DNA of 64,000 bases from Rhodocyclales bacterium (GTDB lineage Bacteria; Pseudomonadota; Gammaproteobacteria; Burkholderiales; Rhodocyclaceae): contig JACOUN010000047.1 of NCBI GenBank assembly GCA_016177805.1, positions 1 to 64,000 of the forward strand, in the 5' to 3' direction. The notes beneath the pieces are model-generated. The model was not told the origin of the DNA and did no database searches. It saw only the letters and a program-made list of their open reading frames with translations. Positions 39,547-64,000 of the stretch are shown in pieces (position 1 is the stretch's first letter; every line of letters starts with the position of its first letter). Position numbers and translations under genes: made by a program.

Positions 39547-39620
39547 GCCCAATTTCCCGGCACCGGTCAGAGGCGGACCCGCCACGCTGGCGCGACGGGT
39601 TCGGTCCCGGATGCATGTTA

Positions 39621-40415: not shown

Positions 40416-40510
40416 TTCGGGCCTCCTGTCGTCGATGTCGCGAAGTTGTCGAATTCAGGTGCCAGCAGGCCGTTTGCCAGTGGCTCCCTTCTGGTCCCTG
40501 TCAGGCACTA

Positions 40511-40527
40511 CGCAAGTCCGGTGCCAG
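40511..40527 (-). promoter_or_regulatory. Sigma-54 promoter of the first flagellin gene
   Basis: On the minus strand CTGGCACCGGACTTGCG matches YTGGCACG-N4-TTGCW at 8 conserved core positions, with only the eighth (C for G) and last base off. Transcription would start near 40500, giving a leader of about 85 bases. Confidence 0.75.
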
Positions 40528-40608
40528 CTTGTGTGCCCGTGTAAACAGTGTTTTTTTGCCGCTTTTCGGGGTGCCGGTCACCGTCGGCTGGCAGAAATTG
40601 TTGTCCGC

Positions 40609-40625
40609 GCGGCAAGCCTTGCCGC
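40609..40625. promoter_or_regulatory. Candidate FleR-type enhancer site upstream of fliC
   Basis: GCGGCAAGCCTTGCCGC fits GCGGCA-N5-TGCCGC perfectly. It lies about 115 bases upstream of the predicted fliC start site, in the intergenic region. Half-sites (TTTTTGCCGC near 40553-40563) lie between. Confidence 0.45.
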
Positions 40626-40646
40626 CCCTGTGAACCGCTTGCCGTC

Positions 40647-42185: not shown

Positions 42186-42356
42186 GAATGTGCGCCCTGT
42201 GGTCGTTGTCTGCATGGCAGACCATGGGTGCCACTATAGGCGCGCGTTGGCTACGTGATCGGTGAATGAAAAGCGGAAAACCCGCCCAATTCGCCTGTTT
42301 TGGGGGCAGTCGGCAGGGCAATCGCATGATCCATGAAACCGAACGATCAGCGATCT

Positions 42357-48722: not shown

Positions 48723-49648
48723 GATCGTGGTTCCTTGTGCGGCGGATGGCGGGCGCGCCACCACGCGATGGTTGCGGTCAGGCCGCGCGCGAGATCGACG
48801 GCGGGGGTCCAGCCTAGCGCCCGCAGACGGCGGTTGTCGCCGACCAGCAGCGGCGGGTCGTCGGGGCGCATCGGTAGCGCGCCGAATTCGGGTTGCGCAT
48901 CCGTTTGCAGCAGCGCGGCCAGTGTGCCGACCAGTTCGCGCAGTTGCAGCGGTTGCCCGGAGGCGATGTTGTAGATGCCGCTGTCGCCGCTTTCGAGCAG
49001 GGTGCGAAACGCGCTGGCGACATCGGCGACATGCAGGAAGTCGCGGTACTGCGTGCCGGCGGTGCAGCGCAGCGGCTGTCCGGCGAGCGCGGCGTTGATC
49101 AGCGATGGGATCAGGCGCGCCGGGTTCTCGTGCGGACCGTAGGGGAAGAACACCCGCCCCCAGGCGAGGCTGGGTCCGTCCGGGGCGCAGTAGCCGAAGG
49201 CCAGTTGGCGCAATGCGTTCTTGCTGATGCCGTACAGGGTGTGCGGTGCGAGCGGGGTCAGCTCTTCGCGGCAGTAGCCGTGACCCCAGTCGTACTCGGC
49301 GCAGGTCCCGGCGATCACCGCGCGGCTGCCGCCGCTGGCGCGGAAGGCCTGCAGCAGGGCGAGGCTGGAGGCGACCCAGGTCAGGTTGTCGTCGGCGCTC
49401 CAGTATTGGCCGTGGGTGGTGTTCCACGCCAGATGCAGCAGATGGCTGGGGCGCAGGCGTTGGCACAGCGCGGCGGTGGCGGCGGTATCGTGCAGATCCA
49501 GCGCTTCCCAGCGCACGGAGGGATCGGTGGCGGGGGGCGGCTGGCGGCTGAGCGCCGTAACCTGCCAGCCGTGCGCGGCCAGTTCGGCGACCGCCGCGCG
49601 GCCGATGAAGCCGCCGGCGCCGGTCACCAGGACGTGGCGGCTCACCAT
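48719..49648 (-). CDS. NAD-dependent epimerase/reductase (extended SDR)
   Basis: The 309-residue product has the Rossmann motif VTGAGGFIGRAAV, the LLHLAW strand, and YGISKNALRQL (YxxxK). It belongs to extended SDRs. In a CDP-sugar cluster it is the most likely 4-ketoreductase of the final step (inference). The ATG at 49648 overlaps the previous gene's end by 7 bases. Confidence 0.85.
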   Translation of the reverse strand: MVSRHVLVTGAGGFIGRAAVAELAAHGWQVTALSRQPPPATDPSVRWEALDLHDTAATAALCQRLRPSHLLHLAWNTTHGQYWSADDNLTWVASSLALLQAFRASGGSRAVIAGTCAEYDWGHGYCREELTPLAPHTLYGISKNALRQLAFGYCAPDGPSLAWGRVFFPYGPHENPARLIPSLINAALAGQPLRCTAGTQYRDFLHVADVASAFRTLLESGDSGIYNIASGQPLQLRELVGTLAALLQTDAQPEFGALPMRPDDPPLLVGDNRRLRALGWTPAVDLARGLTATIAWWRARHPPHKEPRS

Positions 49649-50865
49649 ACGGCCAGCTCCGGCACGGCGGTGACGAAGCGCCCGCCCCAGTCGCGTATCG
49701 CGGCAAGCTGGGTGCCGACTTCGTCGCGCAGATTCCACGGCAGGATCAGCACGTGGTCCGGGCGCTGCGCCCACAGGCGGTCCTCGCCGACGATCGGGAT
49801 GCGGCTGCCGGGCAGGTACTGGCCCTGTTTGTGCGGGTTGCGATCCACCACCCAGGGCAGCAGATCCGCGCGCACCCCGGCGAAGTTGAGCAGGGTGTTG
49901 CCCTTGGCCGCCGCGCCATAGGCGGCGACGCGCTCGCCCCGGTCATGGCAGTCGATGAGGAAACGCAGCAGGTCGTTCTTGATCGTTTCGGCGCGCGCCT
50001 GCAGTTCGAGGTAGGCGTCACGGCGGGTCAGGCCGGCGCGGTCCTCGCAGTCCAGCATCGCTGCGACGGCGGGCGCGATGGGGTGCGGACCGTGCGCGCG
50101 CTGCGCGAACACGCGCAGGCTGCCGCCGTGGGTGGTCAGCTCGTCCACGTCGAACACCCGCAGGCCGTTGGCGGCGAAGATGCGCGTGACGCTGGTGAGC
50201 GACAGATATGAGTAGTGCTCATGGTAAATGGTGTCGAACTGCGATTCGGCGAGCAGCCGCAGCAGATGCGGAAACTCGAAGGTCGCGACTCCGCCGGGTT
50301 TGAGCAGCAGCGCGAAACCGGCGACGAAGTCGTTGATGTCGGGGACGTGGGCGAGCACGTTGTTGGCCGCGATCAGGTCCGCCTGTCGCCCGGCGCCCGC
50401 GAGTTCGCGCGCCAGCGCGGTGCCGAAGAAGCGTTCGACGATCTCCAGCCCCAGCGCCCGCGCTGCGGCGGCGGTGCTGGTGGTCGGCTCGATGCCGTAG
50501 CAGGGGATGCCGGCGTCGCGCACGTAACGCAGCAGATAGCCGTCGTTGGCGGCGACTTCGACCACCTGGCTGGCGGCGCCCAGATTGAGGCGCCGCGTCA
50601 TGTCGGCGACGTAGCGCCGGGCGTGCGCCAGCCAACTGGTCGAATAGCTGCTGAAATAGGCGTAGTCGCCGGCGAACAGCTCGTCGGCGCGGGCGAAGTC
50701 CTCGGTCTGGGCCAGCCAGCACGATTCGCACACCAGCACCCGCAGCGGATACCACAACTCGGGCTGGTGCAGCCGCGCCGCGTTCAGATAGGCGTTGGAG
50801 GGCGGGGCGCTGCCCAGGTCGATCAGGCTCAGTGCGAGCGGGGTGTCGCAATGGCGGCACTTCAT
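49642..50865 (-). CDS. Sugar C-methyltransferase (NovU/TylCIII-like)
   Basis: The 407-residue product has a zinc-binding N-terminus with CRHCDTPL and VCESCWL (CxxC pairs). A SAM domain follows (VVEVAANDGYLLRYVRDAG, ANNVLAHVPDINDFV). The C-terminal Methyltransf_14 domain reads AAYGAAAKGNTLLNFAGV, LPWVVDRNPHKQGQYLPGSRIPI. This three-part layout is that of 3-C-methyltransferases acting on 4-keto-6-deoxy sugar nucleotides. With RfbF, RfbG and an epimerase beside it, the product is probably a C-methyl-branched CDP-deoxysugar. Confidence 0.85.
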   Translation of the reverse strand: MKCRHCDTPLALSLIDLGSAPPSNAYLNAARLHQPELWYPLRVLVCESCWLAQTEDFARADELFAGDYAYFSSYSTSWLAHARRYVADMTRRLNLGAASQVVEVAANDGYLLRYVRDAGIPCYGIEPTTSTAAAARALGLEIVERFFGTALARELAGAGRQADLIAANNVLAHVPDINDFVAGFALLLKPGGVATFEFPHLLRLLAESQFDTIYHEHYSYLSLTSVTRIFAANGLRVFDVDELTTHGGSLRVFAQRAHGPHPIAPAVAAMLDCEDRAGLTRRDAYLELQARAETIKNDLLRFLIDCHDRGERVAAYGAAAKGNTLLNFAGVRADLLPWVVDRNPHKQGQYLPGSRIPIVGEDRLWAQRPDHVLILPWNLRDEVGTQLAAIRDWGGRFVTAVPELAVW

Positions 50866-51452
50866 GGCAGCAACCCCGCGAAATCGGGGGGCAGGTGCGG
50901 GTGGTTGCGGTCGCGCTCGGACAGGTCGGTGGGCGGCAGCGGCCACGCGATGTTCAGACGCGGGTCGAACGGATCGAGTCCGTCCTCGGCCGTCGGCACG
51001 TAGTCGGCGGTGTGCAGGTAGAGCAGTTCGGTGTCGTCTTCCAGGGTCTGCATGCCGTGCGCGAAGCCGTCGGGAATCAGTAGCCCGACCCCATTGGCGG
51101 CGGACAGGATCTGGCCGTGCCAGTGCAGCAGGGTGGGCGAGCCGCGACGCAGATCGACCGCGACGTCGAACACCGCGCCGCGCAGACACTGCACGAACTT
51201 GGTCTCGGTGTGCGGCGGGTGCTGGAAGTGCAGCCCGCGCAGGGTGCCCTGGCGCAGCGTGATGCTGCGGTTGATCTGGCGGATCGCGCCTTGCACCTCA
51301 AGCTCGGCGAACAGCTCCGGGCAGTACAGACGCTCCAGGCTGCCCCGGCTGTCTTCGCGCGGCAGCCGGCGCACGCCGCGCAGGCCGGCGATTGCGGTGT
51401 CGCGCGCGAGAAACCGGCCGTTGCCGCCGACCGGGCGCCAGTCCAGGGTCAT
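50862..51452 (-). CDS. dTDP-4-dehydrorhamnose 3,5-epimerase-like protein
   Basis: The 196-residue product is of the RmlC cupin type: REDSRGSLERLYC, INRSITLRQGTLRGLHFQHPPHTETKFVQCLRGAVFDVAVDLRRGSPT and IPDGFAHGMQTLEDDTELLYLHTADYVP. His in RGLHFQ is the usual catalytic base. In this cluster it probably epimerises a CDP-4-keto-6-deoxyhexose. It overlaps both neighbours by 4 bases. Confidence 0.87.
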   Translation of the reverse strand: MTLDWRPVGGNGRFLARDTAIAGLRGVRRLPREDSRGSLERLYCPELFAELEVQGAIRQINRSITLRQGTLRGLHFQHPPHTETKFVQCLRGAVFDVAVDLRRGSPTLLHWHGQILSAANGVGLLIPDGFAHGMQTLEDDTELLYLHTADYVPTAEDGLDPFDPRLNIAWPLPPTDLSERDRNHPHLPPDFAGLLP

Positions 51453-52576
51453 GGGATAGGGTTCCCCGGTGGGTTTGCCAAGGGGGCGATGGCTACTTCA
51501 TGCCGGGCAATGGCTTCGAGGCACAGTTGCCGGGCGTCGCGTCCGTGCGCCCAGGCGCGATACCACTCGGCGGTTTCGCTCAGGGTGCCGGGCAGGCCCA
51601 GCACCGGCTGCCAGCCCAGTCTGGCGCGCGCGGCGCGGCAGTCCAGGCGCAGCGTGAAAGCCTCGGGTAGCAGGGTGGCGTCAGGCTCGGTCTGCCAGCG
51701 CGCGCCGCCGCCCCAGATGCCGGAGAAGGTGGTGGCCAGTTCGGCCACGGTCAGCGCGTCCTCGGCGTCGGGGCCGAAGTTCCAGCCACGCGCGTAGTCC
51801 TGGCCGTTGTGCAGCATGCGCGCGGCCAGCAGCAGATAACCCCACAGCGGATCGAGCACGTGCTGCCATGGGCGCACCGCGTAGGGGTTGCGTATTGCCA
51901 CCGGCTGGCCGGTGGCAAAGGCGCGGATCATGTCGGGCACCAGCCGGTCCTCGGCCCAGTCGCCGCCGCCGATGACGTTGCCGGCGCGCGCCGAGGCCAG
52001 CGCCACGCCGTGGTCGGCAATGCGGTCGGGCGGGAAGAAGGAATGGCGCCAGGCTTCAGTCACCAGCTCAGTGGCGGCCTTGCTGCTGCTGTAGGGGTCG
52101 GCGCCGCCCAGCGGAGCAGTTTCGGTGAAGCCGGCGCGCGGCATGTCGCCGTCGCCGTTGCGGTAGCACTTGTCGCTGGTCACCACCACCGCCGCCCGCA
52201 CGCTGTCGATGCCGCGCAGCGCGTCGAGCAGGTGCACGGTGCCCATCACGTTGGTGGCGTAGGTGTCGACCGGGTTGCGATAGGAGGCGCGCACCAGCGA
52301 CTGGGCCGCGAGGTGGAACACGATTTCGGGCTGGAAACGTTCCAGGGTGGCGCGCAGGGTGGCCGGGTCGCGCACGTCGGCATACACGCTGTCGATGCCG
52401 TGGTCGACCCGTGCCAGGGTGTAAAGCGCCGGCTCGGTGTCCGGCGCCAGTGCGTAGCCGCATACCTCGGCCCCCAGATGCTTGAGCCACAGCGCCAGCC
52501 AGCTGCCCTTGAATCCGGTGTGGCCGGTGACCAGCACCCGTCGCCCGGCGTAGGTGGAACGGATCAGCTCCAGCAT
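51449..52576 (-). CDS. rfbG: CDP-glucose 4,6-dehydratase
   Basis: The 375-residue product has VLVTGHTGFKGSWLALWLKHLGAEVCGYALAP (NAD site), IVFHLAAQSLVRASYRNPVDTYATNVMGTVHLLDALR, VVTSDKCY and PYSSSKAATELVTEAWR (YxxxK). These are the features of RfbG. It converts CDP-glucose to CDP-4-keto-6-deoxyglucose. Its start at 52576 overlaps the rfbF end by 13 bases. Confidence 0.93.
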   Translation of the reverse strand: MLELIRSTYAGRRVLVTGHTGFKGSWLALWLKHLGAEVCGYALAPDTEPALYTLARVDHGIDSVYADVRDPATLRATLERFQPEIVFHLAAQSLVRASYRNPVDTYATNVMGTVHLLDALRGIDSVRAAVVVTSDKCYRNGDGDMPRAGFTETAPLGGADPYSSSKAATELVTEAWRHSFFPPDRIADHGVALASARAGNVIGGGDWAEDRLVPDMIRAFATGQPVAIRNPYAVRPWQHVLDPLWGYLLLAARMLHNGQDYARGWNFGPDAEDALTVAELATTFSGIWGGGARWQTEPDATLLPEAFTLRLDCRAARARLGWQPVLGLPGTLSETAEWYRAWAHGRDARQLCLEAIARHEVAIAPLANPPGNPIP

Positions 52577-53337
52577 TTCCACGGCGCCTTGCCGCTGGCC
52601 CACAGGGCTTCGAGCTGGTTCTTGTCGCGCAGGGTGTCCATCGGTTGCCAGAAACCGCGATGTTCGAAGGCGCGCAACTGGTCCTGGCGGATCAGTTCGG
52701 CCATGGGTTCGTTTTCCCAGGTGGTCTGGTCGCCCGCGATCAGGTCGATGACCGCAGGCGACAGCACGAAGAAGCCGCCGTTGATCAGGTTGCCGTCGCC
52801 GGCCGGCTTCTCGCGAAAGCCGGTGACCTTGTCGCTGGTGATCTCCAGCGCGCCAAAGCGCCCGGGCGGTGCGACGGCGGTGACCGTGGCCTGCCGCCCG
52901 TGCTGGCGGTGGAAGGCCAGCAATGCCGTGAGGTCTACGTTGCTGAGACCGTCGCCATAGGTCATGAAGAAGGCGTCGTCGTCCTCGACGTAGCGGCGAA
53001 TCCGAGCAATTCGTCCGCCGGTCATGCTCAGTTCGCCGGTGTCGACCAGCGTGACGCGCCACGGCTCGGTGTGCTGCTCGTGCACCTCCATGCGGTTGGA
53101 GCGCATGTCGAAGGTCACGTCCGAGGTGTGGAGAAAATAGTTGGCGAAGAACTCCTTGACCGCGTAGCCACGGTAGCCAAGGCAGATCACGAAGTCGGTG
53201 ATGCCGTGAGCGGTGAAGCTCTTCATCAGATGCCACAGGATGGGCCGCCCGCCGATCTCGACCATGGGCTTGGGCTTGAGGTGGGTTTCCTCGGACAGCC
53301 GGCTGCCGAGTCCGCCGGCCAGTATCACCGCCTTCAT
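52564..53337 (-). CDS. rfbF: Glucose-1-phosphate cytidylyltransferase
   Basis: The 257-residue product has the nucleotidyltransferase motif ILAGGLGSRLSEETHLKPKPMVEIGGRPILWHLMK and the RfbF-specific YRGYAVKEFFANYF, DVTFDMRSNRMEVH, and DAFFMTYGDGLSNVDL. It makes CDP-glucose from CTP and glucose-1-phosphate, the first step of this pathway. It is the first gene of the minus-strand operon, facing the divergent operon at 53536. Confidence 0.94.
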   Translation of the reverse strand: MKAVILAGGLGSRLSEETHLKPKPMVEIGGRPILWHLMKSFTAHGITDFVICLGYRGYAVKEFFANYFLHTSDVTFDMRSNRMEVHEQHTEPWRVTLVDTGELSMTGGRIARIRRYVEDDDAFFMTYGDGLSNVDLTALLAFHRQHGRQATVTAVAPPGRFGALEITSDKVTGFREKPAGDGNLINGGFFVLSPAVIDLIAGDQTTWENEPMAELIRQDQLRAFEHRGFWQPMDTLRDKNQLEALWASGKAPWKCWS

Positions 53338-53535
53338 CGTTATCGCTCCTCCGCCCCACGCGGGTTTACGGGACGCTGCCGGATGATAGTAACCAAAAGA
53401 AGTGCGAGAATGAACCGGAGATAAGGGGCTTTTGCGCCGGTATTCGGCGTTTGCGCGCCCGGCCGTGCGGTTATGCTGGATATGTCGGAGCCACGCGGGG
53501 CGTGCGCCCGCGCAAGCTGGAGCCATGTGACAAAG

Positions 53536-54498
53536 ATGAAAACCGTTTTCGTGACCGGTGCGTGCGGCTACAAGGGCACGGTGCTGGTGCCCAAGCTGCT
53601 CGCGGCGGGGCACCGTGTCGTTGCGCTCGACCTGATGTGGTTCGGCAACTTCCTGCCCGATCACCCCCGGCTCACGGTGCTGCGCCAGGACGTGCGCGAC
53701 GCCGACGCGATCGACCTGGGCGGGGTCGACGCGATCATCCACCTGTCGTCGGTGGCCAACGATCCGTGCGGTGACCTGGACCCCAAGCTGACCTGGGAGA
53801 TCAGCGCGCTGGCGACCATGCAGCTCGCCGACAAGGCGGCGCGTGCCGGGGTGGGGCAGTTCATCTACGCCTCGTCGGGCAGCGTGTATGGGGTCAAGGA
53901 CGAGGACCAGGTCACCGAGGACCTCGAACTGCGGCCGATCTCCGAGTACAACAAGACCAAGATGGTGTCCGAGCGGGTGCTGCTGAGCTACGCCGACCGG
54001 ATGGCGGTGCAGATCGTGCGCCCGGCCACGGTGTGCGGTTTTTCCCCGCGCATGCGTCTGGACGTGTCGGTGAACCTGCTCACCATGCAGGCACTCACGC
54101 GCGGCGCGATCACGGTGTTCGGCGGCAGCCAGACCCGCCCCAACATCCATATCGACGACATCACCGACGTGTATCTGCATCTGCTCGACCGGCCCGACAT
54201 CCAGGGGGTGTACAACGCCGGCTTCGAGAACCTGTCCATCCTGGAGATCGCGAACATGGTCGCGGCGCGCATTCCGGCCGGGATCTCGGTCGCGCCATCG
54301 AGCGACCCGCGTTCCTACCGCGTCAATTCCGACCGTCTGCTCGCGACCGGCTTCCAGCCGCGCAAGACGGTCGCGGATGCGATCGACGAACTGGTGGTCG
54401 CTTACCGCGACGGGCGGCTCAGGGACGAGGACCGCTTCCACAACCTGCGCTGGATGCAGCAGACGGTGCTGAAGCCGGTGGCCAAGGAACTCGGATGA
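53536..54498 (+). CDS. NAD-dependent epimerase (extended SDR)
   Basis: The 320-residue product starts MKTVFVTGACGYKGTVLVPKLLAAGHRVVALDLMWFGNFLP (Rossmann motif GxxGYKG). It continues with IIHLSSVANDPCGDLDP, YASSGSVYGV and YNKTKMVSERVLL (YxxxK). It acts on an unknown nucleotide sugar. First gene of the plus-strand operon. Its frame stays open upstream, but the Rossmann strand fixes this start. A 198-base divergent region lies before it. Confidence 0.87.
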   Translation: MKTVFVTGACGYKGTVLVPKLLAAGHRVVALDLMWFGNFLPDHPRLTVLRQDVRDADAIDLGGVDAIIHLSSVANDPCGDLDPKLTWEISALATMQLADKAARAGVGQFIYASSGSVYGVKDEDQVTEDLELRPISEYNKTKMVSERVLLSYADRMAVQIVRPATVCGFSPRMRLDVSVNLLTMQALTRGAITVFGGSQTRPNIHIDDITDVYLHLLDRPDIQGVYNAGFENLSILEIANMVAARIPAGISVAPSSDPRSYRVNSDRLLATGFQPRKTVADAIDELVVAYRDGRLRDEDRFHNLRWMQQTVLKPVAKELG

Positions 54499-55067
54499 GA
54501 GACTATTGCGCGGACTACGCGACCCGCTTGACCCGTTTGCTCGACAGCTTCGACTGGAGCGCGGTCGAAACCCTGGGCCTGGCGCTGCAACGCTGCTGGC
54601 GTGATGGGCGGCAGTTTTTCATCGTCGGTAACGGCGGCAGCGACGGCAACGCGCTGCACATGGCCAACGACTTCCTCTACGGCGTGGGGGGCGGGCGCAT
54701 GCCGGGGCTCAAGGTGCATGCGCTGGGGGCCAATGCGTCGGTGCTGACTTGTCTGGCCAACGATCTGGGCTACGAGCGGGTGTTTTCCGCCCAGCTCGAA
54801 ACCTTGGCCAACCCCGGCGATGTGCTGCTGGCGCTGTCCGGCAGCGGCAATTCGCCCAACATCCTGCGCGCCATCGAGATGGCAACGCACAAGCAGATGC
54901 AGACTTTCGCGATCCTCGGCTACGGCGGCGGCAAGGCCAAGGCCATGGTCGATACCGCGATCCACTTCGAGGTCGACGACATGCAACTGGCCGAGGACTG
55001 CCAGTTGATCGTCGGCCACATGCTGATGCGCTGGCTGTGCGCGCATCCGCCGGAGCCGCGCGCATGA
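54495..55067 (+). CDS. SIS-domain sugar isomerase, GmhA-like
   Basis: The 190-residue product has the SIS pattern of sedoheptulose-7-phosphate isomerase: FIVGNGGSDGNALHMANDFLYG, GANASVLTCLANDLGYERVFSAQLETLANPGDVLLALSGSGNSPNILRAIEMA, and ILGYGGGKAKAM. GmhA makes heptose precursors; here it sits with epimerases, so a heptose branch of a glycan is likely. It overlaps the previous stop (ATGA). Confidence 0.85.
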   Translation: MRDYCADYATRLTRLLDSFDWSAVETLGLALQRCWRDGRQFFIVGNGGSDGNALHMANDFLYGVGGGRMPGLKVHALGANASVLTCLANDLGYERVFSAQLETLANPGDVLLALSGSGNSPNILRAIEMATHKQMQTFAILGYGGGKAKAMVDTAIHFEVDDMQLAEDCQLIVGHMLMRWLCAHPPEPRA

Positions 55068-56065
55068 CCGGCTTGCCCGCGACGGCGCTGGTGCTGGGGA
55101 GCAATTCGTTCTCCGGCGCGAGTTTTGCGGCGCATCTGCTGCGCGCCGGGGTGCGCGTGATCGGCGCGAGCCGCTCGCCCGAACCGCGCGAGGCCTTCCT
55201 GCCGTATCGCTGGGGTGGGCTGGGCGAAGGTTTTCGCTTTGTGCAGGCGGACCTGAACCACGATCTCGATGCGCTGATGGACGTGATCGCGCACGAGCGC
55301 CCGGCCTGGGTGGTGAACTTTGCCGCGCAGAGCATGGTCGCGGAGAGCTGGCGGCATCCCGAACACTGGTTTCGCACCAACGTGGTCGCGACCATCGCCT
55401 TGCACGAGCGGCTGCGCCATTGCGATTTTCTCGAACGCTACGTGCACATCACCACGCCCGAGGTCTATGGCTCGACCGCCGGACTGGTGGACGAAGACGC
55501 CCCGTTCAACCCGAGCACCCCCTACGCGGTGTCGCGCGCGGCGGCGGACATGAGCCTCAGGACCTTCCACACCGCCTACGGCTTTCCGGTGGTGTATACG
55601 CGCGCCGCCAACGTCTATGGCCCGGGCCAGCAGCTCTACCGCCTGGTGCCGCGCGCGATGCTGAGCGGGCGGCTCGGGCGGCGCCTGCCGCTGCACGGCG
55701 GGGGCTGGTCGGAGCGTTCCTTCATCCATATCGACGACGTGTGCGAGGCCACCTTGCTGATCGCACGCGACGGCCGGCCGGGGCAGGCCTATCACATCTC
55801 GACCGAACGCATGGTCGCGATCCGCGACCTGGTGGCGCTGATCGCGACGCGCATGGGTCTTGCTTTTGAACAACTGGCGGAACCGGTCGGTGAACGCCTG
55901 GGCAAGGACGCCGCCTATCGGCTCGACAGCGCCAAACTGCGCGACGAACTCGGCTGGCGCGACCGCATCGGACTGGAACAGGGGCTGGACAGCGTGCTGA
56001 CCTGGGTGGATGCGCACCTGGACGAGCTGCGCACGCTGCCGCTGGATTACGTACACAAGGCATGA
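55064..56065 (+). CDS. NAD-dependent sugar-nucleotide dehydratase/epimerase (GDP-mannose dehydratase- or RmlB-like)
   Basis: The 333-residue product has LVLGSNSFSGASFAAHLLRAGV, then WVVNFAAQSMVAESWRHPEHWFRTNVVAT, ITTPEVYGSTAGLVDEDAPFNPSTPYAVSRAAADMSL (YxxxR in place of YxxxK) and YTRAANVYGPGQQ. It resembles 4,6-dehydratases (AAQS, TPEVYG). The SxxxY-xxx-R change should be checked. It overlaps both neighbours by 4 bases, hence is co-translated. Confidence 0.82.
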   Translation: MTGLPATALVLGSNSFSGASFAAHLLRAGVRVIGASRSPEPREAFLPYRWGGLGEGFRFVQADLNHDLDALMDVIAHERPAWVVNFAAQSMVAESWRHPEHWFRTNVVATIALHERLRHCDFLERYVHITTPEVYGSTAGLVDEDAPFNPSTPYAVSRAAADMSLRTFHTAYGFPVVYTRAANVYGPGQQLYRLVPRAMLSGRLGRRLPLHGGGWSERSFIHIDDVCEATLLIARDGRPGQAYHISTERMVAIRDLVALIATRMGLAFEQLAEPVGERLGKDAAYRLDSAKLRDELGWRDRIGLEQGLDSVLTWVDAHLDELRTLPLDYVHKA

Positions 56066-56727
56066 ACATGGGCATCGAGATCGATCTGCTGGCCAACTAT
56101 CCGCGCGCCAAGCGCAACGTCGAGGCGCGCGGCGCGGAGAAAACCGAGGAAGACCGGCGCATTGCGCGCCAGTTCGGGCGCGAGTTCTTCGACGGCGAGC
56201 GGCGCCACGGCTACGGAGGCTTCGGCTATCAGCCGCGTTTCTGGCAACCGGTGGTGCCCGATCTGCAGCGCCACTTCGGCCTGCGCGAGGGCATGCGGCT
56301 GCTGGACGTGGGCTGCGCCAAGGGCTTCATGCTGCACGACCTGCAGACGCTGATACCGGGTTTGCAGGTCGCGGGTGTGGATGTGTCCGGCTACGCGATC
56401 GAGTACGCAATGGAGAGCGTGTGTGATCAACTGCAGGTGGCCGACGCGCGTGAGCTGCCGTTTGCCGACGCCAGCTTCGACGTGGTGATCTCGATCAACA
56501 CCATCCACAACCTCGAGCGCGACGAATGCGCCCAGGCGCTGCGCGAGATCGAGCGGGTCGGGCGCGGACGGGCGTTCGTCACCGTCGACGCCTACCGCAA
56601 CGATGAGGAGCGCGAACGCATGATGGCGTGGAACCTCACCGCCAAAACCATCATGTCGGTGGATGAGTGGATCGCGTTCTTTGCCGATGCGGGTTATACC
56701 GGCGACTACTACTGGTTCATTCCGTGA
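56062..56727 (+). CDS. Class I SAM-dependent methyltransferase
   Basis: The 221-residue product has RLLDVGCAKGFMLHDLQ (motif I), VAGVDVSGYAIEYA and FDVVISINTIHNLERDECAQALREIERVGRG. It is a small methyltransferase with a family start of about 55 residues before motif I. The substrate is probably a sugar or lipid in the same cluster. Last gene of the divergent operon. Confidence 0.82.
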   Translation: MNMGIEIDLLANYPRAKRNVEARGAEKTEEDRRIARQFGREFFDGERRHGYGGFGYQPRFWQPVVPDLQRHFGLREGMRLLDVGCAKGFMLHDLQTLIPGLQVAGVDVSGYAIEYAMESVCDQLQVADARELPFADASFDVVISINTIHNLERDECAQALREIERVGRGRAFVTVDAYRNDEERERMMAWNLTAKTIMSVDEWIAFFADAGYTGDYYWFIP

Positions 56728-56810: not shown

Positions 56811-57065
56811 ATGCACACAACCAGTCTTCGCAAGGTCGGCGGCTCGGTCATGCTGGCCGTACCGCCCGCCATTCTCGACTTGCTGCATCTGCAAGCCGGA
56901 GCCACGGTCGGCGTGACCATTGATGGCGGACGCCTGGTGATCGAGCCGCAGCGTCCCCGTTACACGTTGGACGAATTGCTTGCACAATGTGACGCTTCCG
57001 TCGAAGAGGGGCCCGAGGATCGAGTCTGGCTCGACGACAAGCCGGCGGGCAGCGAGTTGCTTTGA
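56811..57065 (+). CDS. mazE: MazE-like AbrB-fold antitoxin
   Basis: The 84-residue product has an N-terminal AbrB/MazE swapped-hairpin: TTSLRKVGGSVMLAVPPAILDLLHLQAGATVGVTIDGGRLVIEPQR. An acidic flexible tail follows (LDELLAQCDASVEEGPEDRVWLDD) that would bind the toxin. The ATG at 56811 follows ATGGAGACG. A palindrome at its promoter suggests autoregulation. The toxin gene is 243 bases downstream. Confidence 0.87.
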   Translation: MHTTSLRKVGGSVMLAVPPAILDLLHLQAGATVGVTIDGGRLVIEPQRPRYTLDELLAQCDASVEEGPEDRVWLDDKPAGSELL

Positions 57066-57308
57066 ACCTGGATTCCGCAGTTGACCGCTTTATGGATGGG
57101 TTTAGCAGCATGCATACGATTGGCTTTTCAGGTTGTGTGACACTTGCTCTCGAGGCTGGCAACGCTACGGGCTGGATTGCACGCCTCGCGCGGCACATGG
57201 CAGCGTTGCAAGCACTTGAAATGGAACCGTCATTTCTGCGCGCTTGCGCCTTGCCCTGCACCGCGCCAGTCGCACACTCCAGCCCGTCCAACTGCGGAAT
57301 TCAGGTTC
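57066..57308 (+). other. Unusual gap between antitoxin and toxin genes
   Basis: MazE and MazF genes usually overlap or nearly touch. Here 243 bases separate them. A TTG-started frame of 86 codons (57062-57322) covers the gap and runs into the toxin gene, but its product looks unlike a real protein and lacks any domain. It contains no clear promoter or hairpin that I can support. It might hold an insertion or a decayed gene. Confidence 0.4.
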
Positions 57309-57641
57309 ATGGAACGCGGTGATATCTACCTGGTGTCGCTGGACCCGACATCGGGACATGAGCAGCAGGGAACACGTCCTGTACTGATCGTGTCGCCGAC
57401 ATCTTTCAACCGGCTGACCAAGACGCCGATCGTGCTGCCTATCACCAGCGGTGGAAACTTTGCCCGCACAGCGGGTTTTGCCGTCTCGCTCATGGGGGCA
57501 GGGACCGCCACCACGGGAGTCGTGCGTTGCGATCAACTGCGTGCACTTGACCTGAATTCCCGGCGTGGCCGGAAGCTGGAAAGCGTTCCATCCGACATCA
57601 TGGAAGAGGTACTGGCACGGCTGGCACCTCTCTTCGAATGA
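57309..57641 (+). CDS. mazF: MazF/PemK-type mRNA interferase toxin
   Basis: The 110-residue product has the PemK/MazF SH3-like fold: MERGDIYLVSLDPTSGHEQQGTRPVLIVSPTSFNRLTKTPIVLPITSG, with GTATTGVVRCDQLRALD and a C-terminal helix VLARLAPLFE. Catalytic residues of the family (the Arg in GTRPVLIVS and Thr/Ser nearby) are present. It looks intact. The start ATG at 57309 has only a weak Shine-Dalgarno sequence. Confidence 0.9.
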   Translation: MERGDIYLVSLDPTSGHEQQGTRPVLIVSPTSFNRLTKTPIVLPITSGGNFARTAGFAVSLMGAGTATTGVVRCDQLRALDLNSRRGRKLESVPSDIMEEVLARLAPLFE

Positions 57642-57717: not shown

Positions 57718-58692
57718 GTGAATTGGGAAGTCGCGCAGACCCTGCTGACCACCATGTGGCGCATCCGCGGCGTCGAGGAGGCGATCGCGCGGCGTTACCC
57801 GGCCGGGCGCATGCGTTGCCCGGTGCATCTGTCGATCGGGCAGGAAGCAGTGCCGGCGGCGGTGGCCGCCTGCGTGCGGCGCGACGACTACGCAGTCAGC
57901 ACCCATCGCGGCCACGCCCACTATCTGGCCAAGGGCGGCGACCTCGCCGCGATGATCGCCGAGCTGCACGGCAAGGCCAGCGGCTGCGCCGGTGGGCGCG
58001 GCGGTTCCATGCATCTGATCGACCCGGCCGTGGGCTTCATGGGCACCTCGGCCATCGTCGGCAACAGCATCCCCGTCGGGGTCGGCCTGGCGCTGGCGCT
58101 GCAGGCGCGCGGCGGCGACGCGGTGAGCCTGGTGTTTCTAGGCGACGGCGCGGTCGAGGAGGGGGTGTTCTACGAATCGGTGAACTTCGCCGTGGTGCGC
58201 AAGCTGCCAGTGATCTTCGTGTGCGAGAACAACCTGTATTCGGTGTATTCGCCGATGGCGGTGCGCCAGCCCGAGCAACCGGGCATCGCCGCGCGCGTGG
58301 GCGGGCTGGGCATCGCCGCGTACTCGGGCGACGGCAACGACGCGCTGGCCTGCCTGGAGGTGCTGCAAGCGGCGTTCGCCCGCGTGCGCGGCGGCGATGG
58401 CCCGGCCTTCGTCGAGTTTTCCACCTACCGCTGGCGCGAGCATTGCGGCCCGCACTACGACAACGATCTGGGCTATCGCAGCGTGGCCGAGTTCGAGGAC
58501 TGGCAGGAGCGCGATCCCGTCGTGGCGCTGGAACGCACCCTGAGCGCGGCGATGGCGGGCGATTGGGACGGGTGGCGGCGCGACACCCGCGCCGCGCTGG
58601 CGGACGAATGCGAAGCCGCGTTTGCGGCGGCCGACGCCGCGCCGTTTCCCGAGGCGGCTACCGCCTACGTCGGGGAGTACGCCACATCATGA
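57718..58692 (+). CDS. Thiamine-diphosphate-dependent E1 component, alpha subunit
   Basis: The 324-residue product (GTG start at 57718) resembles the alpha subunit of pyruvate/acetoin dehydrogenase E1: RCPVHLSIGQEAVPAAVAA, STHRGHAHYLAKGG, GGRGGSMHLID and GDGAVEEGVFYESVNFAVVRKLPVIFVCENN, the GDG-NN TPP motif. No E2 or E3 gene is near, so it is not part of a dehydrogenase complex. It probably does a decarboxylation or carboligation for a sugar or side chain. It overlaps the beta gene by ATGA. Confidence 0.88.
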   Translation: MNWEVAQTLLTTMWRIRGVEEAIARRYPAGRMRCPVHLSIGQEAVPAAVAACVRRDDYAVSTHRGHAHYLAKGGDLAAMIAELHGKASGCAGGRGGSMHLIDPAVGFMGTSAIVGNSIPVGVGLALALQARGGDAVSLVFLGDGAVEEGVFYESVNFAVVRKLPVIFVCENNLYSVYSPMAVRQPEQPGIAARVGGLGIAAYSGDGNDALACLEVLQAAFARVRGGDGPAFVEFSTYRWREHCGPHYDNDLGYRSVAEFEDWQERDPVVALERTLSAAMAGDWDGWRRDTRAALADECEAAFAAADAAPFPEAATAYVGEYATS

Positions 58693-59768
58693 GCGCGGAG
58701 CATCCCACCGAAACCCGCACCCTGAACTGTGCCGAAGCGATCAACGACGCGCTCGCCACCGCGATGGCCGCCGACCCGGCGGTGATCTGCTACGGCCTCG
58801 GCGTGACCGACCCCAAGGGCGTGTTCGGCACCACCAGCGGACTGGAGGCGCGCTTCGGCGCGGCGCGCGTGTTCGACATGCCGACCTCGGAGAACGCGAT
58901 GACCGGCGTCGCGATCGGCGCCGCGATGGGCGGACTCAAGCCGGTCATGACGCACCAGCGCCTCGATTTCTTCCTGCTCGCGCTGGACCAACTGGTCAAC
59001 GGCGCGGCCAAGGCGCGCTACATGTTCAACGGGCGGGTCGGCGTGCCGATCACGATCCGCCTGATCCTCGGGCGCGGCTGGGGCCAGGGGCCGACCCACT
59101 CGCAGAATCTGCAGGCGTGGTTCGCCCACGTGCCCGGCCTCAAGGTCGTCACCCCGGCCACCCCGGAGGACGCGCGCGGGCTGCTGCTGGCGTCCATCTT
59201 CGACCCCGATCCGGTGGTGTTTCTCGAACACCGCTGGCTGCACGCCACGCGCGGCGTGGTGCCGCACGGCGTGGTCGCCACACCCATCGGCCAGGCGCGC
59301 CACGTGCGCGAAGGCGCCGACGTGACCATCGTCGCGATGTCCTACCTGGTGGCCGAAGCCGTGCACGCCGCCGACTGGCTGGCGACGCGCGGCGTCAGCG
59401 TCGACATCCTCGACCTGCGCACGCTGCGCCCGCTCGACTGGCCGGCGGTATTCGCCTCGGCGCGCCGCACCGGCCGGTTGCTGGCGCTCGATTGCGGTTT
59501 TGCCACCGGCTCGGTGGCGGGCGAGATCATCGCGCGCGTCGCGATGGAATGCTGGGACGCGCTGCGCGCCGCGCCACGCCGCCTCGCCATGCCCGACGTC
59601 CCCGAACCCACCAGCCCGGCGCTGACGCGCGGCTTCTACGTGCGGGCCGGCGACATCGCTGCAGCCGTGCTCGAAATGCTCGGCCACGACGCCACCCCCG
59701 CCCGCGCCGCGCTGCCCGAACCGCAGCCGCACGACGTGCCGGGCGACTGGTTCAAGGGGCCGTTCTGA
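58689..59768 (+). CDS. Thiamine-diphosphate-dependent E1 component, beta subunit
   Basis: The 359-residue product has the transketolase-like pyrimidine-binding domain: FDMPTSENAMTGVAIGAAMGGLKPVMTHQRLDFFLLALDQLVNGAAKARYMFNG, with Glu in SENAM as the likely TPP-activating residue. It then has HSQNLQAWFAHVPGLKVVTPATPEDARGLL and the C-terminal domain with VDILDLRTLRPLDWPAV. It pairs with the previous gene. It ends one base into the next gene's start. Confidence 0.88.
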   Translation: MSAEHPTETRTLNCAEAINDALATAMAADPAVICYGLGVTDPKGVFGTTSGLEARFGAARVFDMPTSENAMTGVAIGAAMGGLKPVMTHQRLDFFLLALDQLVNGAAKARYMFNGRVGVPITIRLILGRGWGQGPTHSQNLQAWFAHVPGLKVVTPATPEDARGLLLASIFDPDPVVFLEHRWLHATRGVVPHGVVATPIGQARHVREGADVTIVAMSYLVAEAVHAADWLATRGVSVDILDLRTLRPLDWPAVFASARRTGRLLALDCGFATGSVAGEIIARVAMECWDALRAAPRRLAMPDVPEPTSPALTRGFYVRAGDIAAAVLEMLGHDATPARAALPEPQPHDVPGDWFKGPF

Positions 59769-60583
59769 TGGCGGCGGTCACGGTGATCCTGTCCGCGAGC
59801 AGCGACATCGGGCTGGCCCTGGCGCAGCGACGGTTGGCCGCCGGAGACGAGGTCTGGGGCACCTATCGGCGCGCTTCGGAGGCGACCCGCGCTCTGGTTG
59901 CGCGCGGCGCGCGGCTGGTGGAGGCCGATTTCTCCGATCCTGCTTCAGTGCAGCGTGCATGTCGCCAACTGGCGCCGGATGGGTGGGATGAGCTGGTGCT
60001 GGCGCCGGGCATGCTCGAACCGGTCGGCCCGTTCGTCGAGGCCGATTTCGCGCGCTGGGAGCAGTCGCTGGACGTCAACCTGGTGCAGCAGGCACGCGCC
60101 ACCCATGCGTTGCTGCCGCGTCGTCGTGACAACGCCATGGTGCTGTTCTTTGCCGGTGGTGGCAGCAACTCGGCGCCGCCCTGCTTCAGCGCCTATACCT
60201 TGTCGAAAGTTGCGCTGATCAAGCTGACCGAGTTGCTGCAGGCCGAGTTGCCGGACACCCGCGTGTGCATCCTCGGGCCGGGCTGGGTGAACACCAAGAT
60301 CCACCAGGAGACCCTGCGCGCCGGCGGGCGGGCGGGCGAGGCGCTCGCCGCGACCCGCGACCGTCTGGCGCGTGACGCGTTCGTGCCGATGGCCGACGTG
60401 CTCGACTGCATCGACTGGCTGCGCACCCAGCCGCGCGAGGTCATCGGCGGGCGCAACTTCAGCGTGGCCCACGATCCCTGGCGTGATCCGGCGTTTGCCA
60501 AGCATCTGGCCGACCATCCCGACCACGCCAAACTGCGCCGCGCCGGCAACGACGCATTCTTACCGGAGTCCCCCCGTGCCTGA
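59768..60583 (+). CDS. Short-chain dehydrogenase/reductase
   Basis: The 271-residue product has VILSASSDIGLALAQRRLAAGDEVWGTYRR, a loose GxxxGIG-like nucleotide site (SASSDIG). The catalytic region reads FFAGGGSNSAPPCFSAYTLSKVALIKLTELL with YxxxK. It may reduce the product of the E1 or carboligase enzymes. It is co-translated with the E1 beta gene (the TGA stop shares the A of its ATG). Confidence 0.82.
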   Translation: MAAVTVILSASSDIGLALAQRRLAAGDEVWGTYRRASEATRALVARGARLVEADFSDPASVQRACRQLAPDGWDELVLAPGMLEPVGPFVEADFARWEQSLDVNLVQQARATHALLPRRRDNAMVLFFAGGGSNSAPPCFSAYTLSKVALIKLTELLQAELPDTRVCILGPGWVNTKIHQETLRAGGRAGEALAATRDRLARDAFVPMADVLDCIDWLRTQPREVIGGRNFSVAHDPWRDPAFAKHLADHPDHAKLRRAGNDAFLPESPRA

Positions 60584-61445
60584 ACTGTCACTGCCCGAAC
60601 AAATCCTCGCCGTGCTGCCGACCGTGCGCGAGCGGCACGATCCGCGCGACTTGCTGCATGTGGTGCTCAAGCAGGCCGCCCATCAGGCGTATGCCGTGGC
60701 GTTCTCCGACCCGGCGGGGGGCGCGGTGCGGCTGGCGCCGTTCGGTGAGTTGCGCTTTCCCTACGTGCGCATGGGGGCGGTGGATTCGGTCAACCTGTTC
60801 GATCTGGACGAGCTGATCCTGTTCGCTTTCTACCATCTGAACCGCACCCGCTACCACAAGGTTGCGGACATCGGCGGCAACCTCGGGCTGCATAGCCTGA
60901 TGCTGGCGCGTTGCGGTTTCGAGGTGCACTGCTACGAGCCGGACCCGGTGCACGCCGAACTGCTGCAAGCCAATCTCGAACGCAATTCGGTCCAGGGGGT
61001 GACGCTGGTGCGTGCGGCGGTCTCGTCCGAGGCGGGCGAGCTGGAGTTCGTGCGGGTCAAGGGCAACACCACCGGCAGCCACCTGGCGGGCGCCAAGGCG
61101 AATCCCTACGGCGAACTGGAGCGTTTCCCGGTCCGGGTGGAGGCCATGGGTCCCATCCTCGAACGGGCGGATTTTCTCAAGATCGATGCCGAAGGGCATG
61201 AGGCCGAAATACTGTGTGCCACTCCCCCGCAGGCGTGGCGCGGCAAGGAGGCGGTGGTCGAGGTGGGCAGCGCGGAAAACGCGGAGCGCATCTTCGCGCA
61301 TTTTCACGGCGGCGATGTGCGGCTTTTCGCCCAGCGGTTGAACTGGGGCGAAGTCACGCGCCGCGACGACATGCCGGAAAGCTACAAGCATGGCTCGCTC
61401 TTCATCGGCGGGCGCGGCGAGCCCATGCCCTGGGGGGCGGCGTGA
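60576..61445 (+). CDS. FkbM-family methyltransferase
   Basis: The 289-residue product (GTG start at 60576, after CCGGAG) has HKVADIGGNLGLHSLMLARCGFEVHCYEPDPVHAELLQANLERN and VTLVRAAVSSEAGELEFV, then LERADFLKIDAEGHEAEIL, which is the FkbM signature. FkbM-type enzymes O-methylate sugars or polyketides. Gene overlap with both neighbours suggests a shared pathway. Confidence 0.88.
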   Translation: MPELSLPEQILAVLPTVRERHDPRDLLHVVLKQAAHQAYAVAFSDPAGGAVRLAPFGELRFPYVRMGAVDSVNLFDLDELILFAFYHLNRTRYHKVADIGGNLGLHSLMLARCGFEVHCYEPDPVHAELLQANLERNSVQGVTLVRAAVSSEAGELEFVRVKGNTTGSHLAGAKANPYGELERFPVRVEAMGPILERADFLKIDAEGHEAEILCATPPQAWRGKEAVVEVGSAENAERIFAHFHGGDVRLFAQRLNWGEVTRRDDMPESYKHGSLFIGGRGEPMPWGAA

Positions 61446-63220
61446 AACTGTCCGACTACATCGCCCGCTTTCTCGCCGAACGTGGCATCCGCCACGTGTT
61501 CGCGGTGTCGGGCGGGGCGTCGTTGCACCTGATCCACTCGCTCGATGCCGTGGAAGGGATCACCTTTGTCTGCCCGCAGCATGAGCAGGCCGGGGCGATG
61601 GCGGCCGACGGCTACGCGCGAACCCGTGGCGCACCGGGCGCGGCGGTGGCCACCAGCGGTCCGGGCGCGACCAATCTGATCACCGGTATCTGCGGTTGCT
61701 ACTACGACTCGGTGCCGGTGTTGTTCCTCACCGGGCAGGTCGCCACCTTCCGCATGGCGGCCGATACGGGGGTGCGCCAGATCGGCTTCCAGGAGACGCC
61801 CATCCTCGATCTGTGCCGCCCGATCACCAATTACGCCGTCCAGATCGGCGATCCGTCGCGGATACGGTACGAGCTGGAAAAGGCCTGGCATCTGGCGACT
61901 CACGGGCGGCCGGGGCCGGTGCTGATCGACGTGCCGGACAATGTGCAGCGCATGGAGATCGATCCGCAGGCTTTGACCGGTTTCGTGCCCCCGCAGCCAG
62001 GTCAAGGCGCATTCGGCGGCATGGCGGAAGCCTTGCCGACTGTCCGCGATTGGCTGCGCGCCAGCCACCGTCCGGTGGTGGTGGCGGGCTGGGGGCTGCA
62101 TCTGGCCGGGGTGGCGGACGCTTTCCGCGCCTGGGTCGAAGCGCTGCGGCTGCCGGTCGCGCCGACCTGGGGGGCGGCGGACATCCTGCCCGCCGGCCAC
62201 CCGCTGTATGTCGGCACTTTCGGCACCCATGGCTGCCGTCATGCCAATTTCGCGGTGCAGAATGCCGACCTGATCATCAGCCTCGGCTCGCGGCTCGATA
62301 CCAAGAGCACGGGCAGTCCGATCACCACCTTTGCGCGTGGGGCGAGGAAGGTCGTGGTCGACATCGACGCCGACGAACTGCGCAAGTTCGCGGCCTTCGG
62401 TCTGCACATCGATCTGCCGGTGCAGGACGATCTGCGCGAGGCGTTGCCGCTTCTTGCCGGTCTGGATACGCCCTGCGACAGCACGGCGTGGCTGCAAACC
62501 ATAGCCGGCTGGAGGGCCGCGTACCCGGTTTGTCCGCGCGAATGGCGGGATGAAGTAGCGGTCAATCCCTATGTGCTGGTGGAGCGTCTCTCGGAATTGT
62601 TGCCCGCGCCGTGCAACCTCTACATCGACACCGGCTGCGGCATCGCGTGGATGATGCAGGCGTTCCGGGTACGCACCGGACAGCGCCTGTTCCATGATTT
62701 CAACAATACCGCGATGGGTTGGGCGTTGCCGGCCGCGATAGGCGGGCGCCTTGCCGATCCGGCCACGCCGGTGGTGTGCGTCAGCGGCGACGGTTCGCTG
62801 CTCATGAACATCCAGGAGCTGGCGACCGCCGCCCGGCATGCGTTGCCGCTCAAGCTCGTCCTGCTCAACAACGGTGGCTACGCGATGATCCAGCAGACCC
62901 AGGACCAGTGGTTGGGGTCGCGTTACCTTGCCTCGTCGGTCGAGGGGGGGCTGGCATTCCCCGATTTCGACGCGGTGGCGCGCGGCTTCGGCTGGGAGGT
63001 CCGCCACCTGCGGCGCAACGACCAACTCCAAAGCGGGTTGCGTGATGCGCTTGCCTTGCCCGGCCCGGTGCTGATCAACGTGGAGATCCCGGCCGCGCAC
63101 CGGGTCACCCCGCAGGTCAAGTTCGGGCGGCCCAACGAGGATTCCGAGCCGCTGCTGCCGCGCGGCGAATTTCTCGCCAACATGATCGTGCCCGCGCTAG
63201 AGGTATCGCAAAAGGAATGA
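61442..63220 (+). CDS. Thiamine-diphosphate-dependent carboligase (acetolactate-synthase-like)
   Basis: The 592-residue product (GTG start at 61442) has the three-domain layout of acetolactate synthase. The N-terminus has the activating Glu48 in CPQHEQAGAMAADGYAR, the middle is a Rossmann domain (210-340), and the C-terminal TPP site has GDGSLL (449-454) and LLNN (474-477). In CDP-sugar clusters such enzymes (YerE, from yersiniose synthesis) add a two-carbon unit from pyruvate onto C4 of a CDP-4-keto-deoxy sugar. That reaction is plausible here, but not proven. It could also act on a simple keto acid. Confidence 0.88.
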   Translation: MKLSDYIARFLAERGIRHVFAVSGGASLHLIHSLDAVEGITFVCPQHEQAGAMAADGYARTRGAPGAAVATSGPGATNLITGICGCYYDSVPVLFLTGQVATFRMAADTGVRQIGFQETPILDLCRPITNYAVQIGDPSRIRYELEKAWHLATHGRPGPVLIDVPDNVQRMEIDPQALTGFVPPQPGQGAFGGMAEALPTVRDWLRASHRPVVVAGWGLHLAGVADAFRAWVEALRLPVAPTWGAADILPAGHPLYVGTFGTHGCRHANFAVQNADLIISLGSRLDTKSTGSPITTFARGARKVVVDIDADELRKFAAFGLHIDLPVQDDLREALPLLAGLDTPCDSTAWLQTIAGWRAAYPVCPREWRDEVAVNPYVLVERLSELLPAPCNLYIDTGCGIAWMMQAFRVRTGQRLFHDFNNTAMGWALPAAIGGRLADPATPVVCVSGDGSLLMNIQELATAARHALPLKLVLLNNGGYAMIQQTQDQWLGSRYLASSVEGGLAFPDFDAVARGFGWEVRHLRRNDQLQSGLRDALALPGPVLINVEIPAAHRVTPQVKFGRPNEDSEPLLPRGEFLANMIVPALEVSQKE

Positions 63221-64000
63221 GCGCCCATCCTGTCCTTGCCCGTGCTGCCGTACTCTACCGGACCGGCGAACCGCTGGTGGTGGAGTCCGGCATCGAACTG
63301 CCCGTGCTGGGGCGGGGGCAGGTGCGCGTTCGCGTGGCGTATGCGGGGCTGTGTCACAGTCAGTTGATGGAGGTGCGCGGCCGTCGCGGCCCGGACCCGT
63401 GGCTGCCGCATCTGCTCGGACACGAGGCGACCGGGCGGGTCGAGGCGGTCGGGGAGGGTGTCGCCAAGGTCGCGCCGGGGCAGCGTGTGGTGCTGGGCTG
63501 GATACGCGGCGCCGGCATCGAGGCGGGTGGGTGCCAGTATCGCAAGGGTGATGTGCTGATCAACTCCGGTGCGGTGACGGCCTTCGGTACGCGCGTGGTG
63601 GTGTCGGAGAACCGTTGCACGCCGCTACCGGACGGGGTGCCGGACGATGTCGGGGTGCTGTTCGGTTGTGCGCTGCCGACGGGTGCTGGCATGGTGCTCA
63701 ATACGCTGCAACCTGAAGCCGGCACCACCCTGGTGGTGTTGGGGCTGGGCGGCATCGGCATGAGCGCGATGCTGGCGGCGCTGACCATTCCGGGAGTGAC
63801 CGTGATCGCGGTGGATGTCGAAGCGCACAAGCTCGCGCTGGCGCGCGAGCTGGGCGCGCATAGCGTGCTCGATGCCGCAACCCAGGATGTGCGGGCGCAG
63901 GTGCGCGCCCTGTCCGATGGCGGCGCGCACTATTGCGTCGAAGCGGTCGGGACGGTCGACAGCATCGAGCTGGGGTTCGAGCTGGTACGTCGTGGTGGCG
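63217..64000 (+). CDS. Zinc-type alcohol dehydrogenase (MDR), 3' end outside window
   Basis: The frame starts at ATG 63217, overlapping the previous stop, and stays open to the window end (261 residues). It has the GroES-like part AYAGLCHSQLMEVRG (Cys46) and HLLGHEATGRVEAVGEGV (His69, Glu70), then VVLGLGGIGMSAMLAAL and DVEAHKLALARELGAHSV (NAD site). The usual cluster of four Cys for a structural zinc is not seen between residues 95 and 125; only one Cys is there. It may oxidise or reduce an alcohol made by the preceding enzymes. Confidence 0.85.
   Translation, partial: MSAHPVLARAAVLYRTGEPLVVESGIELPVLGRGQVRVRVAYAGLCHSQLMEVRGRRGPDPWLPHLLGHEATGRVEAVGEGVAKVAPGQRVVLGWIRGAGIEAGGCQYRKGDVLINSGAVTAFGTRVVVSENRCTPLPDGVPDDVGVLFGCALPTGAGMVLNTLQPEAGTTLVVLGLGGIGMSAMLAALTIPGVTVIAVDVEAHKLALARELGAHSVLDAATQDVRAQVRALSDGGAHYCVEAVGTVDSIELGFELVRRGG

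Follow-up and report, generated by a model that had tools for sequence, protein, structure and literature searches.

A conserved operon with an E1 alpha/beta pair and heptose-type genes, probably for a carbon-branched surface sugar, in a Rhodocyclales bacterium

The DNA analysed here (the window) is the first 64,000 nucleotides of contig JACOUN010000047.1 of a Rhodocyclales bacterium (assembly GCA_016177805.1). Its right-hand end carries an operon with two different thiamine diphosphate (ThDP) enzymes, an E1 alpha/beta pair and a YerE-like carboligase. We propose, with a probability of about 0.6, that the operon serves to make a nucleotide-activated surface sugar that derives from a heptose and is carbon-branched, the E1 pair adding a two-carbon branch at a C4 ketone. 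Gene content, conservation, the clades of the enzymes, the absence of E2, the exchange of the E1 pair for a split transketolase in relatives and the co-occurrence of the YerE-like gene are what the sequences show; the substrates, the order of steps and the product are predicted from them.

Layout of the operon and its surroundings

The operon spans positions 53536 to at least 67610, where the contig ends, in a genome assembly that is 91% complete. A sequence-only reading of its middle part had described an E1 pair and an acetolactate-synthase-like enzyme sharing one overlapping operon with a short-chain dehydrogenase/reductase (SDR), an FkbM methyltransferase and a medium-chain dehydrogenase/reductase (MDR), with no E2 or E3. 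Profile searches bear this out: the six genes are intact and score far above chance, adjacent genes overlap by 4-8 bases, and neither an E2 nor an E3 gene lies near the pair. However, the operon is much longer than was noted, and the supposedly orphan pair occupies a regular slot in it.

The first gene (SDR_53473; 53536..54498, + strand, as are all genes up to the MDR gene) encodes a Cj1427-like sugar-nucleotide C4 dehydrogenase/epimerase (best PDB match 6vo6, E 2e-34). It is followed by a SIS-domain, GmhA-like phosphoheptose isomerase (54495..55067; PF13580), a nucleoside diphosphate (NDP)-sugar (dTDP-glucose) 4,6-dehydratase-like SDR homologous to Bradyrhizobium gdh (55064..56065), and a class I S-adenosylmethionine (SAM) methyltransferase (56062..56727; PF08241) with 63-73% identity in many relatives. 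Next come E1 alpha (57718..58692; GTG start; PF00676, E 2.9e-56) and E1 beta (58689..59768; Transket_pyr 5e-32, Transketolase_C 2.9e-27), an SDR oxidoreductase (59765..60583; PF00106; 53% identical to that of a same-family relative, L042, and 43% to that of Rhodopseudomonas), the FkbM-family methyltransferase (about 60576..61445, start codon uncertain; TIGR01444 at 76.8 bits, over the cut-off), the YerE-like carboligase of the acetolactate-synthase superfamily (61442..63220; all three TPP domains), and a zinc-type MDR dehydrogenase (63217..64284), which runs beyond the window end at 64000. Further right lie an HldE-like fusion of a cytidylyltransferase-like domain and a PfkB kinase, in reversed order relative to HldE (64281-65777), a nucleotidyltransferase (65781-66773), and a B12-binding radical SAM protein cut by the contig end (66801-67610). 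The RfbH-like 3-dehydrase expected to the right of 64000 is thus absent up to 67610, and the MDR, HldE-like and nucleotidyltransferase genes stand there instead.

Between the methyltransferase and E1 alpha, the operon is split by a MazEF-like cassette (56811-57641), composed of a MazE/ChpBI-like antitoxin (56811-57065) and a MazF/ChpB-like toxin (57309-57641). A 247-base element (57063-57309), with 21-base inverted ends that are 95% alike, sits exactly between the two. In L042 the gene order is identical and the cassette is lacking; good matches extend throughout, including E1, SDR, FkbM, YerE-like (58%), radical SAM, MDR, HldE-like and nucleotidyltransferase genes, with the radical SAM gene preceding the MDR gene.

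On the - strand, a divergent CDP-sugar module (47994-53340) encodes RfbF, RfbG, an RfbC-like protein, a C-methyltransferase, an SDR and a CmcI-like protein. Flanking the glycan island at 36278-42215 are flagellin and fliD/fliS-like genes, together with a methyltransferase that has a MethyTransf_Reg domain (PF10119). Flagellin, and not lipopolysaccharide (LPS), may therefore be what the sugar decorates.

The two thiamine diphosphate enzymes

In the phylogenetic tree, the E1 alpha clade of the window is split with 99% support from E1 alpha of the pyruvate dehydrogenase (PDH) type, represented by sequences from the same bacterial family and from human. The window protein scores 262 bits against TIGR03182, under the cut-off of 394. 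The residues of the ThDP site are kept, namely GDG...N in alpha and, in beta, the ThDP glutamate (SEN) and the HSQ histidine. E1 beta carries a C-terminal extension, ending FKGPF in the window, and this FxGPF type was found in 71 of the 81 clade E1 beta proteins versus 0 of 12 PDH-like ones. An E2-like match was seen at none of 95 E1-clade loci, whereas each of the four PDH controls has one; in the relatives the search was aimed at E2 and not separately at E3. In addition, a full AceE (1517 bits, over the cut-off) is encoded on another contig of the genome, in which the window pair is the sole alpha-type E1 found. On account of the tree, the absent E2 and AceE elsewhere, we reject the reading of the pair as a pyruvate or acetoin dehydrogenase.

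Antibiotic clusters are known to contain E1 pairs, termed alpha-KADH2, that place acetyl on keto-sugars (C2 branching); for split transketolases, the addition of hydroxyacetyl to such sugars has been proposed (PMC12247030). The window pair has the hallmarks of the alpha-KADH2 type, with separate alpha and beta E1 subunits, ThDP residues, no E2 partner and a setting of NDP-sugar genes, and its tree contained no characterised alpha-KADH2 sequence. From these sequence features, it is predicted to transfer acetyl from pyruvate to a keto-sugar.

The best solved relatives of the second ThDP enzyme are 8rph (302 bits) and 5ahk (281 bits), the latter of which we take to be PpYerE; acetohydroxyacid synthase (AHAS) I of E. 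coli is close behind (280 bits). According to a review, the CDG motif is unique to JanthE, and 8rph, whose sequence has this motif, is therefore identified with JanthE. In the tree, which has long reference branches, the window enzyme joins JanthE (98%) and PpYerE (90%) in a group that excludes the AHAS of its own genome. AMIQQTQDQW stands in place of the AHAS motif MVRQWQ (MVxQWQ), and the score against the AHAS equivalog is 383.6 bits, short of the cut-off of 538.35; on motif, score and tree together we reject AHAS. We file the enzyme as YerE-like, and its acceptance of ketones is a prediction. Within a sub-lineage of the E1 operons, its gene travels with the SDR of the type found at 59765 and with FkbM.

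Conservation, heptose-type partners and the bradyrhizose operon

Scanning public genomes with an E1 alpha protein alignment yielded 80 loci in more than ten phyla, among them Pseudomonadota, Cyanobacteriota, Verrucomicrobiota, Chlamydiota, Planctomycetota, Nitrospirota, Bdellovibrionota, Acidobacteriota, Chloroflexota and Bacteroidota. E1 beta adjoins E1 alpha in nearly all loci. Within 10 kb of E1 alpha were found SDR (68/95), dehydratase-like SDR (66/95), HldE-like (50/95), SIS (42/95) and methyltransferase (42/95) genes, counts that take in weak, low-identity family-level matches, SDRs most of all. Where at least 6 kb is available on each side, 47 of 58 loci have at least three of seven partners. 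A conserved operon is the regular home of the E1 pair. The loci include clade pairs in two metagenome bins labelled as archaea, one Nanoarchaeota and one Woesearchaeota (L096, L111), in which mis-binning is possible. When the window's phylum was searched with the SDR, one further genome among 398 was recovered, so the operon is sporadic. A phage or plasmid origin was considered and rejected: phage matches are short or weak only, and there are eight plasmid matches, those of Azospirillum lying amid glycan genes.

Several partners are of heptose type. The window SIS protein finds its best PDB matches among phosphoheptose isomerases, the kinase domain of the HldE-like protein matches heptose 7-phosphate kinase, and the first SDR resembles Cj1427. 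In Campylobacter jejuni, GDP-heptose is made by GmhA, HddA, GmhB and HddC and oxidised at C4 by Cj1427 (PMC10680097). These matches make an NDP-4-keto-heptose the most likely acceptor of the window E1 pair. The O-antigen region of Coxiella burnetii likewise includes a phosphoheptose isomerase (CBU0674), epimerase-like CBU0676, CBU0677, and CBU0678, which has the reversed HldE domain order, is of unknown function and is needed for full-length LPS (PMC5843353); it also includes an E1 alpha gene, CBU_0686 (PMC6549354). A relative that is a tick endosymbiont has E1 alpha/beta, reversed HldE-like, SDR, dehydratase-like SDR, SIS and methyltransferase genes within 26 kb. In a Coxiella endosymbiont contig (L214, L215; G942:C77), pieces of a broken second E1 pair (50901-51545) lie near an intact pair (42526-44603).

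The closest parallel to the window concerns bradyrhizose, an inositol-fused ten-carbon sugar of whose biosynthesis we know no account. A bradyrhizose-negative mutation of photosynthetic Bradyrhizobium, in gdh (BRAO285v1_100023), lies in an 11-gene operon (PMC4743980). Both published gdh primers match exactly in a genome of 7.8 Mb (G538), where the gene is 60% identical to window 55064-56065. The 11 genes there are, in order, HldE-like, nucleotidyltransferase, SDR, SIS, gdh, transketolase N, transketolase C, MDR, HAD, APH-type and methyltransferase, the HAD call resting on reading of the sequence since Pfam gave no match. Seven of them have homologues in the window (SDR 75%, gdh 60%, SIS 58%, HldE-like 52%, methyltransferase 43%, MDR 42%, nucleotidyltransferase 38%), and the slot of the window E1 alpha/beta pair is filled by the split transketolase.

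Searching 292 genomes of the Rhodopseudomonas/Bradyrhizobium family with the SDR (E <= 1e-90) gave 14 operons, which with the window and one genome of its phylum make 16. Among these SDR-anchored neighbourhoods, 11 have the E1 pair, five the transketolase pair and none both; ten of the 11 E1 genomes are Rhodopseudomonas and are not independent events. Two clusters fetched by E1 (L071, L086) contain an E1 pair together with a more distant split-transketolase-like pair, so the exclusion is not universal.

Proposed pathway, alternatives and known systems

In the pathway that we propose, the GmhA-like isomerase, the HldE-like kinase/nucleotidyltransferase and the stand-alone nucleotidyltransferase would produce an NDP-heptose, whose C4 ketone would be exposed by the Cj1427-like SDR, the dehydratase-like SDR or both. 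E1 alpha/beta, acting without E2 and E3, would decarboxylate pyruvate on ThDP and add the hydroxyethyl/acetyl carbanion to this ketone, leaving a tertiary alcohol with a two-carbon branch. SDR and MDR enzymes would then reduce or oxidise the product, and the methyltransferases would methylate it. The YerE-like enzyme would serve the E1 sub-lineage as a second carboligase, which either attaches another chain or takes a related sugar as its substrate.

The structure of bradyrhizose fits such chemistry. Its C1 aldehyde closes on OH-4, OH-5 or OH-9 (PMC9912281), and six-membered closures via both C5 and C9 place both of these on C4, which thus carries C3, C5, C9 and OH. We infer that this tertiary alcohol is the expected product of acyl anion addition to a C4 ketone. 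In the bradyrhizose operon, the split transketolase in the slot of E1 would add a hydroxyacetyl unit from a ketose; seven heptose carbons and two from transketolase would bring the count to nine, the methyltransferase could supply the tenth, and an aldol between C7 and C8 would close the inositol ring. Given the acetyl and hydroxyacetyl precedents of alpha-KADH2 and split transketolases, the E1 version should give an acetyl or 1-hydroxyethyl branch. A wider idea, which we advance tentatively and consider somewhat unlikely as a whole, is that E1 and split-transketolase pairs are exchangeable two-carbon modules in an ancient operon family for branched, sometimes carbocyclic, heptose-derived sugars, built from seven heptose carbons, two from the ThDP pair and perhaps a further one from a methyltransferase, the ring closing by intramolecular aldol; in that case the product of the window operon would be a deoxy analogue of bradyrhizose.

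Several points weigh against the proposed pathway. Substrates, step order and product are all read from sequence. The SIS protein is under the gmhA equivalog cut-off, and the HldE-like match is likewise below its cut-off or at the level of domains. 6vo6, the closest solved relative of the first SDR, is one that we take to be Cj1427. The dehydratase-like SDR has (T/S)-P-E in place of T-D-E at the active site, as seen in all of 20 homologues, which makes the reaction that it catalyses uncertain. The SIS protein of Rhodopseudomonas is distant (33-36%). Some E1-clade loci (L043, L044, L095, L136, L145) have no heptose partner nearby, and that of the Streptomyces griseofuscus plasmid pSGRIFU1 (L148, 14992-17038) lies in a polyketide-synthase-like cluster, where it adjoins condensation-domain, acyl carrier protein and ketosynthase genes with no evident sugar genes. 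Finally, the 2016 gdh mutants may be polar, as their authors acknowledge (PMC4743980).

Among the alternatives, the E1 pair might instead make the donor of the YerE-like enzyme: pyruvate and a sugar aldehyde would give a 1-deoxyketose, then a hydroxylated 2-oxo acid, which would be added to a 4-keto sugar as a caryophyllose-type side chain. The YerE-like gene is present in exactly 10 of 16 Rhodopseudomonas genomes, those with the E1 operon, and the other six lack both; under random assignment of independent genomes the chance of this match is 1 in 8008, and the genomes are not independent. In R. palustris CGA009 the O-antigen consists of a sugar branched at C4 and akin to caryophyllose (PMC9912281). 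The side chain of caryophyllose is a tetrahydroxyhexyl group ending in CH(OH)-CH3 (PMC5706390), and by analogy the YerE-like enzyme may add a chain of this type, whether or not the E1 pair helps to make its donor. However, a YerE-like gene lies within 10 kb at just 19 of the 95 E1-clade loci, even by a loose score, so that E1 usually works without it, and the bradyrhizose operon has a transketolase in the slot of E1 and no YerE-like gene. We regard the donor route as unlikely.

The sequence-only reading had pointed to CDP-keto sugars and an RfbH-like 3-dehydrase; in the resulting model, CDP-4-keto-6-deoxyhexose supplied by RfbF and RfbG and 3-deoxygenated by RfbH, as for yersiniose, would be the acceptor. 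RfbF and RfbG do adjoin the operon (51449-53340, divergent), and in a Riflebacteria bin (L138) the six genes of the CDP-sugar module, in the same order, also stand beside the E1 module. However, the best RfbH score in the genome, which is 91% complete, is 127 bits against a cut-off of 423, a C-methyltransferase gene and epimerase-like and reductase-like genes already belong to the CDP-sugar module, and RfbF/RfbG are not among the genes common to the Rhodopseudomonas and Bradyrhizobium clusters; the partners with which E1 travels are of heptose type. This route is quite unlikely. That both enzymes are displaced from central metabolism, the one as E1 of an acetoin or pyruvate dehydrogenase and the other as an acetolactate synthase, and sit by chance in a glycan island is extremely improbable: their superfamilies are of central metabolism, yet AceE is encoded elsewhere in the genome, as are other homologues of acetolactate synthase, of which one has the AHAS QWQ motif, no E2 occurs at the E1-clade loci, the clades are separate, and linkage to sugar genes is kept across many phyla. 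The broader claim of the sequence-only reading, that both enzymes serve surface-sugar biosynthesis, probably of a branched sugar, is supported.

The heptose-branching pathway would give the split transketolase of the bradyrhizose operon a specific role in C-C bond formation and predicts which atom changes when the E1 pair replaces it. It also extends alpha-KADH2-type enzymes, described so far mainly in antibiotic clusters (PMC12247030), to surface-glycan loci across many phyla, and could explain why full-length LPS in Coxiella requires the reversed HldE-like gene (PMC5843353). The statement that no described pathway has this gene set needs qualification: sugar branching by E1 is known as alpha-KADH2 (PMC12247030) and the enzyme chemistry thus has precedent, whereas a heptose-type surface-glycan use and the exchange with split transketolase were not found described. 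In the open-access literature, we found no direct description of an E1 pair in O-antigen or flagellin clusters.

Like alpha-KADH2 in the aldgamycin, kibdelomycin and paulomycin clusters, the window E1 alpha/beta pair lies without E2/E3 within a sugar-biosynthesis cluster, and a Streptomyces locus (L145) with an EryCIII-like glycosyltransferase and a dTDP-sugar epimerase falls in its clade. In contrast to these clusters, which make antibiotic hexoses, the partners in the window are of heptose type and the setting is that of a surface glycan. Unlike YerE, JanthE and PpYerE, the window carboligase forms its own sub-clade (98%), has the canonical GDG motif, and is linked to the E1 pair and heptose genes rather than to RfbF/G/H. 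The GDP-heptose pathway of C. jejuni matches the window in its types of isomerase, kinase, nucleotidyltransferase and C4-dehydrogenase, but has no ThDP carboligase and no carbon branch. The bradyrhizose operon differs in having split transketolase for E1 and HAD and APH-type genes, and in lacking the YerE-like, FkbM and second SDR genes. The window operon, with the core SDR, SIS, gdh-type dehydratase, methyltransferase, MDR, reversed HldE-like and nucleotidyltransferase genes and an alpha/beta ThDP pair in the equivalent slot, is related to the bradyrhizose operon proper without being a member of it, as its pair is not a split transketolase.

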